From assembly GCF_000420145.1 (NCBI RefSeq), contig NZ_ATUJ01000001.1, positions 62,001-126,000 on the forward strand: DNA of 64,000 bases. Direction: 5' to 3'. Source of the stretch: Paracoccus zeaxanthinifaciens ATCC 21588 (lineage in GTDB: Bacteria > Pseudomonadota > Alphaproteobacteria > Rhodobacterales > Rhodobacteraceae). Positions 19,810-64,000 of the stretch are shown here, in pieces (positions within the stretch are counted from its first letter, which is position 1; every line of letters starts with the position of its first letter). Below the pieces are notes generated by a model. It was not told the DNA's origin and did no database searches. It worked only from the letters and a program-made list of their open reading frames with translations. A program made the position numbers and the translations under genes.

Positions 19810-19886
19810 TGGTAGCGGAGGAGGGACTTGAACCCCCGACACGCGGATTATGATTCCGCTGCTCTAACCAACTGAGCTACTCCGCC
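19810..19886 (-). tRNA. tRNA-Met (anticodon CAT), likely elongator
   Basis: A 77-base tRNA read on the minus strand. It has a 7-bp acceptor stem (first pair G-U), D arm TAGCTCAGTTGGTTAGAGC, anticodon stem GCGGA/TCCGC with loop ATCATAA (anticodon CAT), T arm with GGTTCAAGTCC and an encoded 3' CCA. It is not initiator-like, since the first pair is G-U rather than unpaired C-A and the anticodon stem lacks three G-C pairs next to the loop. A lysidine-modified tRNA-Ile2 also has CAT and cannot be fully excluded. Confidence 0.9.
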
Positions 19887-59750: not shown

Positions 59751-60237
59751 TGCCGGCCACCTGAACGGCGGGCTGGCCGCAAGCCTGTTCGCCGAGGTGC
59801 TGATCGCGGATCAGCTCTCTCGCAACCTGATCGGCAAGGCGTTGCCGCGCGGGATGCAGATTTCGCATTTCTCGGTCCTGAACCTACTGGCCCATGTGAA
59901 CGAGGAACGCACCCCCGCCCAGCTGGCCGAGGCGTTCCACGTCACCCGCGGCGCGATGACGAACACGCTGTCGCGGCTGGAATGGGCGGGGCATATCCAT
60001 ATCCGCCCCGACTGGGACGATGCGCGGCGCAAGTTCGTGTCGATCAGCCGCACGGGGCGCGAGGCCCGCGACCAGGCGATCGCGGCCTTCATGCCGCTGA
60101 TCGCGGGCGTGGTCCGCGACATCGGCGCCGACCGGGTCCGCAGCGCCCTGCCCGTCCTGCGCGAATTGCGCAGCCGGCTGGAGGAGGATCCGCCCAGCGC
60201 CGAGGACGCTCAGGGCGCGCGCGACGTCAGCAGATAG
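59725..60237 (+). CDS. MarR-family transcriptional regulator
   Basis: A 170-residue winged-helix protein. The HTH region is [21 protein letters not shown] (about residues 63-83) with wing [16 protein letters not shown]. The family is usually an aromatic- or drug-responsive repressor; no ligand is suggested here. The start at 59725 gives a usual N-terminus; an ATG at 59695 is an alternative. It lies wholly downstream of the nitrilase-family gene and its end overlaps convergent ubiG by 28 bases. Confidence 0.85.
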
Positions 60238-60944
60238 TTCACCGACAGGTCGGTCGCGGACAGCCGCCAGCCGAAGCTGACGGGGTTGAACACCATCCCG
60301 CAGCGATCGACGGGCAGCAGCCCGCCGCGTTCGGCCATCGCGGCCAACTCGTCCGGCGTCGGGAACCGCTGCCAGTCATGCGTGCCGCGCGGCAGCCAGC
60401 GCATCACCCATTCCGCGCCCACAATCGCCGCAAGGAAGCTTTTGGTCGTGCGGTTCAGCGTGGACAGGATCACCAACCCGCCGGGACGGACCAGCCTGCG
60501 GCAGGTGGCGACGAACTCGGCCGGATCGGCGACATGCTCGACGATCTCCAGCGCCAGGACCACGTCGAAGACCTCGCCCGCCTCGACCAGCGCCTCGGCG
60601 GTGGTCGCGCGATAGTCGATGTCCAGACCCTGCGCCTCGGCATGGGTGCGGGCGACGTTGATGTTCAGCTCGGCCGCGTCGGCGCCGACGACCGTGGCGC
60701 CCAGCCGGGTCATCGGTTCCGCGACCAGCCCGCCGCCGCAGCCGATATCCAGCACGCGCAGCCCCTCGAAGGGGCGCGCCTCGCGGCGGTCGCGTCCGAA
60801 CTCGGTCCCGATCTGGGTGGTGATGTAGTCCAGCCGGATGGGGTTCATCAGGTGCAGCGGGCGGAACTTGCCCTTCGGGTCCCACCATTCGGCGGCCATG
60901 GCCTCGAACTTGGCGATCTCGGCGGGGTCGATGCTGGCGCTCAT
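60210..60944 (-). CDS. ubiG: Ubiquinone biosynthesis O-methyltransferase
   Basis: A 244-residue SAM-dependent enzyme for both O-methylations of ubiquinone synthesis. Motif I is [14 protein letters not shown]; the N-terminus [20 protein letters not shown] and the C-terminal segments [15 protein letters not shown] and NYLLTSRAP are characteristic. AAGGACG precedes the ATG. It is divergent from pip. Confidence 0.96.
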
Positions 60945-60956
60945 GCGGGCGTCCTT

Positions 60957-60986
60957 CTGGCAGGCGTCGTCTGTCTGTCTTATATA
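60957..60986 (+). promoter_or_regulatory. Candidate promoter of pip with little or no leader
   Basis: CTGGCA (60957-60962) and TATATA (60981-60986) are spaced by 18 bases. The implied start is within a base or two of the pip ATG (60993), which would give a leaderless transcript. TATATA is self-complementary and could also serve ubiG. Confidence 0.45.
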
Positions 60987-60992
60987 GGGGGC

Positions 60993-61997
60993 ATGGACCG
61001 ATTGGCAGGACAAATCACCGCGTCACATGGACGCCTTCACCCGGCCTCCGAGCCCTTCGCCCGCCACATGCTGGAGGTGGGCGACGGACATACCCTGTAT
61101 GTCGAGGAATGCGGCAACCCCGCCGGACGACCCGTCGTCGTGCTGCATGGCGGACCGGGGGGCGGGTGCAGCCCGTTCATGCGCCGCTTCTTCGACCCTA
61201 GGCATTTCCGCGTCATCCTGTTCGACCAACGCGGCTGCGGGCGGTCCCGGCCCCAGGCCTCGGTCGAGGCCAACACCACCCCCCACCTGGTCGCCGATAT
61301 CGAAACGATTCGCACGCGCCTGGGCATCGACCGCTGGCTGCTGTTCGGCGGCAGCTGGGGCGCGACCCTTGCCGTCGCCTATGCCGAGGCGCATCCCGAC
61401 CGGGTGACGGGCCTCGTGCTGCGCGGCGTGTTCCTGGGCATGCAGACCGAGCTGGACTGGTTCTATGGCGGCGGCGCGGGGCGGTTCTTCCCCGACCTGT
61501 GGGCGCAGTTCCAGGAACCGATCCCTGAAGCCGAACGCGGCGACATGATCGCGGCCTATCACAAGCGGCTGTTCGATCCCGACGCCTCGCGGCAGGCGCG
61601 TTACGCGCAGCCCTGGCTGATGTGGGAAAACGCGCTGGCGGGGCTGCAATCGTCGGGGGGCAGCCACGCGCCCGCCGATTACGCCCGCGCCTTCGCCCGG
61701 CTCGAGAATCACTTCTTCAGCAATGCCTGCTTCTTGGAAGAAGGCCAGCTGCTGCGCGACCGCCACCGGATCGAGCATCTTCCCGCCGTGATCGTTCAGG
61801 GCCGCTATGACATGGTCTGCCCACCCGCCAGCGCATGGCGGCTGGCCGATGGCTGGGGGCGCTGCCAGCTGCGGCTGGTGCCCGCATCGGGCCATGCCCT
61901 GTCCGAACCCCGCATCACCGCGGAACTGGCGGGCGTGATGGACCAGATCCGCGACGACGACCGCGCCAGGGCCGGCACAGAAGGACGCGACGCATGA
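60993..61997 (+). CDS. pip: Proline iminopeptidase
   Basis: A 334-residue alpha/beta-hydrolase that removes N-terminal proline. The oxyanion region [28 protein letters not shown], and the nucleophile elbow GGSWGATLA (Ser about residue 121) are those of the S33 family; the catalytic Asp and His are in the C-terminal half ([15 protein letters not shown]). It is followed by tspO with a 4-base overlap, and appears to be the first gene of a two-gene operon. Confidence 0.93.
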
Positions 61998-62437
61998 ACC
62001 TGTTCCTCGTGTTCCTGCTGGCAAGCGCGGCCGCCGCGACGACCGGCATCGTGTTCAAGCCCGGCGCCTGGTATGACGGGCTGCGCAAGCCCGGCTTCAC
62101 CCCGCCGAAATGGGCGTTTCCCGTGGCCTGGACCGCGATCTATCTTCTGTCGGCCTATGCCGCATCGCGCATCGCTCCGCTGCCCGGGGCGGGCATGGCC
62201 TTGGCGCTGTGGGCCGCGCAGATCGCGCTGAACACGCTGTGGACGCCGCTGTTCTTCGGGGCGCACCGGATGGCGCTGGCGATGGTCTGCATGCTGACCC
62301 TGCTGGTGACGGTGCTGGCCATGACGCTGGCCTTCTGGCGGCTGGACTGGCTGTCGGGGCTGATGATCCTGCCCTATCTGGGCTGGCTGGTCGTGGCGGC
62401 GGGGCTGAACTGGCGGATCTGGCGCGACAACGCCTGA
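61994..62437 (+). CDS. tspO: TspO/MBR-family tryptophan-rich sensory protein
   Basis: A 147-residue five-helix membrane protein. Typical segments are [20 protein letters not shown] (about residues 35-54), [20 protein letters not shown] and the C-terminal [16 protein letters not shown]. TspO in Rhodobacter represses photosynthesis genes by exporting or sensing porphyrin intermediates; here the same role is possible, and hemH lies 5 kb upstream. The ATG overlaps the pip stop by 4 bases. Confidence 0.92.
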
Positions 62438-62449
62438 TCGCGGTCGCGC

Positions 62450-62478
62450 TTGCATTTGGGGGGAAGCGGCGCTATATG
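62450..62478 (+). promoter_or_regulatory. Promoter of the rimP-nusA operon
   Basis: TTGCAT (62450-62455) and TATATG (62473-62478), spacer 17 bases, form a near-consensus promoter. The predicted start near 62485 gives a leader of about 90 bases before rimP. Confidence 0.6.
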
Positions 62479-62484
62479 CCCAGC

Positions 62485-62574
62485 AAGACAGCGGTGCAGG
62501 GGTCCAAACCCTGCCCACCGGAAATTCCGCATGGGGGCCGCTGACGGCCCCTTTTTCATGTCCGAGAGGATCTC
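62485..62574 (+). promoter_or_regulatory. Structured leader with attenuator-like terminator before rimP
   Basis: The leader contains a first stem (GCAGGG 62496-62501 with CCCTGC 62509-62514, extended by CGGT/ACCG arms at 62492-62495 and 62517-62520). A second hairpin follows, with GGGGCCG 62534-62540 and CGGCCCC 62545-62551, loop CTGA, and then five T (62552-62556). The second is an intrinsic terminator located between the promoter and the rimP ATG. This is the arrangement of an attenuator. It may also end the upstream pip-tspO transcript. Confidence 0.5.
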
Positions 62575-63210
62575 ATGTCGAACGATCTGCCCGTCTCGAA
62601 CGACCTCATCGCCAAGACCGCGATCGACCGTCGCCTGGCCGAGATCATCATTCCGGTGATCGAGGATATGGGCTTCGAACTGGTGCGCGTGCGCCTGCAG
62701 GGCGGCAAGACGCCGCTGCTGCAGATCATGGCCGACCGCCCCGAGGGCGGCATCAACGTGGACGACTGCGCCGAGATCTCGACCGCGGTCAGCGCCACGC
62801 TGGACGTCGAGGATCCGGTCGAGGACGCCTACAACCTCGAGGTCAGCAGCCCCGGCATCGACCGGCCGCTGACCCGCATGAAGGATTTCGAGACCTTCGA
62901 GGGCTACGAGGTCAAGCTGGAGACGAACCAGCAGATCGACGGCCGCAAGCGCTGGAAGGGCATCCTTGCAGGCACCGAGGGCAACGAGGTCCTGATCAAC
63001 ATCGAGGAAGCCGGCGAGACGCACACGATCGGCCTGGATTTCGACTGGCTGTCGGATGCCAAGCTGGTGCTGACCGACGAGCTGATCAAGGAAATGCTGC
63101 GTCAGAAGAAGGAAGCCGGGGTCGAGATCGACAACCTGGACGAAACCGCCTTCGACGAGATCGAAACCGACGACCAAGATGGCGCAGACGGCGCCGAAAC
63201 GAAGGAGTGA
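62575..63210 (+). CDS. rimP: Ribosome maturation factor RimP
   Basis: A 211-residue 30S assembly factor. It has the N-terminal domain ([20 protein letters not shown]), [19 protein letters not shown] and [12 protein letters not shown], then a C-terminal SH3-like domain and an acidic tail rich in Asp and Glu (about residues 185-211), typical of alphaproteobacteria. It is followed by nusA after 3 bases. It starts the conserved rimP-nusA-infB operon. Confidence 0.95.
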
Positions 63211-63213
63211 GCG

Positions 63214-64000
63214 ATGGCGATCACCTCTGCCAATCAGCTGGAACTGCTGCAGACGGCCGAAGCCGTCGCACGCGAGAAGATGATCGACCCCGAGCTGGTC
63301 ATCGAAGCCATGGAGGACAGCCTCGCCCGTGCCGCCAAGTCGCGCTACGGGGCCGAGATGGACATCCGCGTGAAGATCGACCGCCGCAACGGCAACGCGA
63401 CCTTTACCCGCGTCCGCACCGTCGTCGCCGATGACGAGGTCGAGAACTACCAGGCGCAACTGACCGTCGAGCAGGCCCGCCCCTATCTGGACGAGCCCAA
63501 GGTCGGCGACGAGATCACCGACCAGGTCCCGCCCGTGGAACTGGGCCGCATCGCCGCCCAGTCGGCCAAGCAGGTCATCCTGCAGCGCGTCCGCGAGGCC
63601 GAGCGCGACCGCCAGTACGAGGAATTCAAGGATCGTGCCGGCACCATCATCAACGGCATCGTCAAGCGCGAGGAATACGGCAACATCATCGTCGATGTGG
63701 GCCGTGGCGAGGCGATCCTGCGCCGCAACGAGAAGATCGGCCGCGAAAGCTATCGCCCGAACGACCGCATCCGCGCCTATGTGAAGGATGTCCGCCGCGA
63801 GAACCGCGGCCCGCAGATCTTCCTGTCGCGCACCGATCCGCAGTTCATGGCCGAGCTGTTCAAGATGGAAGTGCCGGAAATCTATGACGGCGTCATCGAA
63901 ATCAAGGCCGTGGCCCGCGACCCCGGTTCGCGCGCGAAGATCGCCGTCATCAGCTATGACAACTCGATCGACCCGGTCGGCGCCTGCGTCGGCATGCGCG
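63214..64000 (+). CDS. nusA: Transcription factor NusA (partial, continues beyond the window)
   Basis: The first 262 codons of NusA, which binds RNA polymerase and acts in pausing, termination and antitermination. Visible are the N-terminal RNAP-binding domain ([20 protein letters not shown]), [19 protein letters not shown], the S1 domain (about residues 133-200) with [20 protein letters not shown], and the start of the first KH domain ([14 protein letters not shown]). The remaining KH domains lie beyond the window. It follows rimP by 3 bases. Confidence 0.95.

Follow-up and report, generated by a model that had tools for sequence, protein, structure and literature searches.

The DNA upstream of rimP in Paracoccus zeaxanthinifaciens raises the question of whether the operon that encodes NusA is preceded by an attenuator, and, if so, which factor sets it. 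The window, i.e., the whole stretch of 64,000 nucleotides analysed here, contains rimP (62575..63210, ATG at 62575) and, on the same plus strand, the 5' part of nusA (63214..64000), which runs off the window. The closest RimP among the matches listed is that of Paracoccus sp. C2R09 (L001, 99% identity). The upstream gene, tspO, has its end at 62437 and is read in the same direction as rimP, and a likely Shine-Dalgarno sequence of rimP, GAGAGGA, is found at 62564..62570. The sole tRNA in the window, tRNA-Met (anticodon CAT), is located at 19810-19886 on the minus strand. We propose that the segment before rimP, all features of which are on the plus strand, acts on the rimP-nusA operon as an attenuator in which two RNA folds compete, with feedback by NusA, and we assign to this reading, allowing for a regulator that is only partly right, a probability of about 0.6.

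The predicted promoter consists of the -35 element TTGCAT (62450..62455) and the -10 element TATATG (62473..62478), separated by a 17-nt spacer. An earlier, sequence-only reading of this locus called the promoter near-consensus, which is overstated, because the two hexamers match the E. coli consensus at 7 of 12 positions and a sigma-70 scan returned no promoter sites. The promoter pair is still conserved across the leaders of the family and is seen again at fixed spacing in relatives: the best-placed -10 hexamer starts with TAT in 154 of the 169 family leaders, and its distance to the leader start is 6 or 7 nt in 148 of them (8 nt in the window). The distance to the -10 element places the predicted transcription start at 62485..62487.

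A conserved leader RNA of 70 nt (62487..62556) follows. The leader was found in all 110 rimP loci that were read (the best 80 of 503 found, plus 30 further loci), which represent 88 distinct leaders; the pattern used for cutting out leaders was widened after a narrower version missed several of these loci. Alignment A1 was built from the leaders of the 110 loci, and covariance model R1 was built from A1. In its own genome, R1 has a single clear site, at rimP (60 bits), and the next match scores 21 bits. Matches with E<=1e-3 are present in 369 of 394 Rhodobacteraceae genomes and in 334 of the 347 good-quality ones, these counts being of model matches irrespective of the neighbouring gene. Of the 25 family genomes that R1 did not match, 20 were examined by name, and 10 of the 20 have no RimP match in the assembly. 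Among 289 genomes drawn from the class, the four of the same family, our own included, all matched at E<=1.4e-11, and none outside the family fell below 4.6e-4; four weak matches from outside the family are nevertheless upstream of rimP. Among the weak matches elsewhere (27.9-35.6 bits), the 13 second sites examined (L386-L398) look like ordinary GC-rich terminators or chance matches at other genes and were set aside. We are almost certain that rimP is preceded by a conserved cis-acting leader.

Two hairpins are recognized in this leader. Hairpin A (62496..62514) has the arms GCAGGG and CCCUGC and the loop GUCCAAA (62502-62508), in which UCCA is often conserved. The second is an intrinsic terminator, a G+C-rich stem-loop of 8 bp (62533..62552), followed by a U-run (62552..62556) that ends 18 nt before the rimP ATG. 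Fold z-scores against dinucleotide shuffles are about -2.6 for hairpin A and -2.8 for the terminator, with 1 of 200 shuffles equally good in each case, and a terminator scan of 60000-64000 found four sites vs 1.7 expected (sd 1.5), the one in the rimP leader being the longest. Recurrence across loci and covariation of hairpin A are far stronger support than any such single-sequence test. In alignment A1, all 8 pairs of hairpin A have changes on both sides. In a second alignment, made of 100 leaders (59 of them weak matches) and fitted to the R1 structure, 95.2% of cells are paired, and 152 cells contain a double change, compared to 36.7 (sd 4.7) after shuffling (0/500). Comparative evidence of this kind indicates that hairpin A is a real RNA helix. 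The earlier description of one stem and then an intrinsic terminator before rimP holds, as both hairpins are found at their places in the window and recur in 110 of 110 rimP loci; of the two stems, hairpin A covaries strongly, and that of the terminator is retained in 98.7% of cells. A likeness of hairpin A to a tRNA anticodon arm was dropped because its stem and loop vary too much.

The description of the leader as attenuator-like is also upheld, by the family-wide promoter, the covarying hairpin, the terminator, and a covarying antiterminator that the sequence-only reading missed. Transcription is predicted to begin with (A)ACAGCGGY, a sequence that can pair with RCCGCUG(U) in the 5' arm and loop of the terminator. 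In the window, the antiterminator would form between the 5' strand CAGCGGU (62489..62495) and the 3' strand GCCGCUG (62537..62543), and the second part of the same fold pairs CCCA (62514-62517), from the conserved CCCACCGG element (62514..62521), with UGGG (62532-62535). In family leaders, a changed 5' element often comes with a changed terminator apex that restores the pairing; the combinations include CAGCGG/CCGCUG, CAGAGG/CCUCUG (L355 and L362), CAACGG/CCGUUG (L371), ACAGG/CCUGU (L065 and L329), GCGCGG/CCGCGC, and ACGGC/GCCGU (L303). Seven leaders (L299, L318, L332, L336, L339, L366, and L372) do not fit, and a group with AACAG/CUGUU pairs weakly, at about -5 kcal/mol. An outer stem CGGY/ACCG around hairpin A was rejected as a conserved helix, as it is lost when the 5' element changes and ACCG stays; it may form in some species.

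Folding of growing transcripts, computed for 10 leaders with the polymerase footprint and kinetics left out and with a program that cannot form pseudoknots, gives, for the leader in the window, the antiterminator as the best fold from 54 to 62 nt (-28.3 kcal/mol at 58-62 nt) and the terminator as the best fold from 64 nt onwards (-34.5 at full length). With the RNA cut before the 3' arm of the terminator, 141 of 147 distinct leaders form at least 4 antiterminator pairs; shuffling of the first 38 nt lowers this number to about 56 of 147. The complete leader still prefers the antiterminator in 22 of the 147, and the median gap is 5.0 kcal/mol.

In the mechanism that we envisage, the conserved promoter would start a leader of about 70 nt, with the terminator standing before rimP. 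In the computed folds, as long as RNA synthesis has passed the terminator loop and not yet its 3' arm, the 5' element and CCCA pair with the terminator 5' arm to give the antiterminator, a three-way junction to which hairpin A contributes one arm; synthesis of the 3' arm then makes the terminator the more stable fold by a few kcal/mol. The choice of fold would be kinetic, set by the dwell time of RNA polymerase at the terminator. Abundant NusA, by slowing polymerase and favouring intrinsic termination, would lead to the terminator fold and lower expression of its own operon, and with scarce NusA the antiterminator would persist and allow read-through.

The idea that NusA controls the operon encoding it has been under discussion since 1985 (see the papers cited in PMC2965389), and in Bacillus subtilis NusA is described as autoregulating by NusA-stimulated termination in its own leader (Mondal 2016, as presented in PMC12288461). 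The site studied here is located before the nusA operon, as in NusA-autoregulated attenuators, with rimP and then nusA following. By analogy with B. subtilis, Streptococcus agalactiae, and the rimP-leader, NusA feedback is plausible as the best-supported regulation, and we give NusA an even chance of being the regulator. A natural case bears on the target: in 251 loci where both genes were found, the rimP-nusA gap exceeds 110 nt in three entries (L105, L376, and L385), the last two from the same genome, G568. In this draft genome, the only one of its genus in the set, a 233-nt gap separates rimP from nusA and contains, immediately in front of nusA, a leader of 77 bits with a complete promoter of its own; the copy at rimP is degenerate (39.6 bits). 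The two copies are about 680 nt apart (contig C122, 5472-5544 and 6221-6288, minus strand). The complete promoter and leader directly before nusA suggest that the element serves nusA.

The same two folds might respond to another effector, such as an RNA chaperone of the cold-shock type, a factor encoded in the operon that acts in ribosome assembly or translation, or a small molecule, which would bind the UCCA loop of hairpin A or CCACCG. We keep this in consideration, as a rather doubtful alternative, because the UCCA loop (62502-62508), with TCC in 103 of 149 distinct hairpin A loops, and the CCACCG that follows hairpin A (62514-62521) are both conserved and have no pairing partner that explains their conservation; moreover, antitermination by CspA has been proposed at the nusA-infB operon of E. 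coli, a proposal cited and disputed in the relevant passage of PMC6511841. Against this reading, UCCA is missing from many leaders, and outside the family it occurs in 11 of 93 leaders vs 11.3 expected, i.e., with no enrichment. A base-paired contact between the UCCA loop and the Shine-Dalgarno region was also considered and rejected (native -4.92 vs permuted -5.09, with 8848 of 10000 permutations as good).

A simpler account would do without the antiterminator: a plain NusA-stimulated terminator, tuned by its strength, with the complementarity of the 5' end a by-product of two separately conserved sequences. This would agree with the general rimP-leader, in which Naville found no antiterminator (PMC2965389), and with S. 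agalactiae, where such a hairpin is reported to end transcription 31 nt from the start site (PMC4448216). It would also agree with the weak outcome of a fixed-register test of the antiterminator, where 75.8% of cells are paired vs 74.4 (sd 0.5; 1/500), four pairs with a double change are equalled in 103 of 500 shuffles, and the covariation score stands at 23/500; the antiterminator core is nearly invariant, and its register slips between leaders. What speaks against the plain terminator, besides the distinct compensatory combinations between leaders, is that the 5' end and the terminator apex co-vary when no register is imposed. For 105 distinct combinations from 185 leaders (L297 left out), the mean duplex energy of 5' element and apex is -9.29 vs -8.47 (sd 0.12) for permuted partners (0/20000), and for the 29 combinations without AGCGG it is -7.13 vs -5.19 (sd 0.31; 0/20000), in tests that ignore the tree and with the start of the 5' element set by eye in 17 loci. 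The thinned sets are drawn from the 169 leaders that were cut out with the pattern or with the model: with leaders differing by more than 15, 25, and 30% (82, 32, and 14 leaders), 0, 4, and 39 of 20000 permutations were as good, whereas a control segment (nt 28-36) in the same sets gave no signal (4574, 1970, and 4017 of 5000). We regard the plain terminator as unlikely, and an antiterminator formed by the 5' end of the leader as probable on this comparative evidence.

The complementary bases include the terminator loop, so that the 5' end could instead pair with the loop of the formed terminator, in a pseudoknot that would stabilise a short, trans-acting RNA released at the terminator. To judge from the sequence, this pairing would also take bases of the stem and leave 0-1 nt to cross the helix, and the computed nascent folds, albeit from a program blind to pseudoknots, are mutually exclusive; we hold such a structure to be very improbable. 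The sequence-only reading had itself pointed out that the hairpin might only end the pip-tspO transcript. In that case rimP would be served by another promoter, and in the window the terminator stem does end as close as 115 nt downstream of tspO. This is disfavoured and, in our estimate, highly unlikely: 31 of 80 leader loci have no pip or tspO match in the upstream DNA examined (for two of the 31, L007 and L009, only 990 and 398 nt), the promoter is downstream of tspO and conserved at fixed spacing together with the 5' element, and G568 has a second leader copy before nusA. Some read-in from tspO may be ended by the same hairpin. A leader-peptide attenuator, for which a 22-aa frame is open in the window from the ATG of the -10 box (62476) to a stop in the terminator loop (62542-62544), has a negligible chance of being correct, as this ATG is inside the -10 element and upstream of the predicted start, 91 of 169 family leaders have no ATG and 40 of them no ATG, GTG, or TTG, which led us to reject a conserved translated leader ORF, and indels between relatives break any common frame.

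The two-fold attenuator is thus favoured for the family, and its reach beyond it is a separate matter. A search of the class gave 209 genomes with RimP, of which a part, 30 loci and 100 regions, was examined. Of 169 loci inspected, the majority belonging to other alphaproteobacterial families, 142 have a hairpin followed by a T-run (-7 kcal/mol or better) before rimP. In 93 non-redundant leaders from those families, complementarity of the terminator to the upstream region is slightly above permutation (z -0.95 to -3.2), with 2 of 5000 permutations as good for 5' arm plus loop and 134 of 5000 for the apex, vs 491 of 5000 in a promoter-side control (z -1.3). Because this signal is small, the antiterminator is not claimed as a general feature of Alphaproteobacteria. 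Of the same 93 leaders (loci L145-L293), 19 have TCCCA or CCCAT within 80 nt upstream of the rimP terminator, vs 9.8 (sd 3.0) after shuffling, an excess that would fit pairing with UGGG of the terminator arm.

In one other family, f93 (17 of 18 genomes with RimP), the leader 5' end GCUGGCYC and the terminator arm GGGCCAGC form a helix of up to 10 bp (L180 and L399-L414). The energy of this counterpart helix, computed from hand-chosen pieces and with no permutation, is -14.0 to -20.2 kcal/mol in 13 leaders. One genus of f93 has an extra CGUCCG/CGGACG match upstream. It is a tentative idea, on which we would sooner bet against than for, that there is an undescribed class of alphaproteobacterial attenuators in which the antiterminator strand is made up of the very nucleotides transcribed first, with a sequence that each family has re-invented and that is always complementary to the terminator 5' arm. 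If this is true, NusA-controlled polymerase pausing could set RimP and NusA expression together with the choice of start nucleotide, or trimming of the 5' end, since the antiterminator strand begins at the start site.

Among known systems, the closest in kind is the rimP-leader (Naville and Gautheret 2010, PMC2965389), which was described in many bacteria, with NusA suggested as its regulator. According to that description, it is a 5' UTR of rimP-nusA whose terminator, GGGc..gCCC followed by a T stretch, lies 4-130 nt upstream of the start codon; the window has this motif, GGGGGCCG..CGGCCCC and then TTTTT, at a distance of 18 nt from the ATG. The main text of that paper uses neither the word Alphaproteobacteria nor the word Rhodobacter. 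Unlike the general rimP-leader, presented there as having no larger conserved element and no visible antiterminator, the leader studied here has hairpin A, CCACCG, and a predicted antiterminator at its 5' end. It differs also from the gammaproteobacterial tandem form, in which a second terminator, CCCg(...)cGGG, is reported upstream, in that there is one terminator in the leader and hairpin A has neither U-run nor motif. In the passages covered by our literature search, no rimP-leader antiterminator outside Naville's gammaproteobacterial form was found, and the search returned no published start sites or terminated leader RNA for Rhodobacteraceae. The Rfam family RF01770, rimP (102 positions), is named for the leader of the same gene, and at E<=10 it does not match the leader in the window; its best match in this genome, elsewhere, scores 17.8 bits vs a cut-off of 47. 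Nothing else relevant in Rfam was found at the leader at the same threshold, and Bp2_287, on the other strand (19.6 bits vs a cut-off of 70), was taken as chance.

In B. subtilis, NusA-stimulated termination likewise takes place in the leader of its own operon, and NusA dependence was measured there, whereas the window leader is known from sequence; the passage on B. subtilis in PMC12288461 makes no mention of a 5'-end antiterminator of the type proposed here. In S. agalactiae (gbs0413-gbs0418), PMC4448216 places a terminator between the start site and rimP-nusA-infB, with short and long RNAs from one start. Termination at 31 nt, unlike in the leader of about 70 nt in the window, leaves no room there for an architecture of our type. 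The leader described here is a genuine attenuator-like leader, known in kind, as a rimP-leader, and new in form: it is family-wide, falls outside RF01770, and combines an upstream covarying hairpin with a putative 5'-terminal antiterminator. It would add to Rfam a well-conserved RNA family, currently absent from it, of a large group of marine and soil bacteria. For the study of NusA autocontrol by leaders outside Bacillus, it provides a testable switch that is compact and shared by the family, together with a covariance model able to detect it and a naturally occurring copy placed before nusA.
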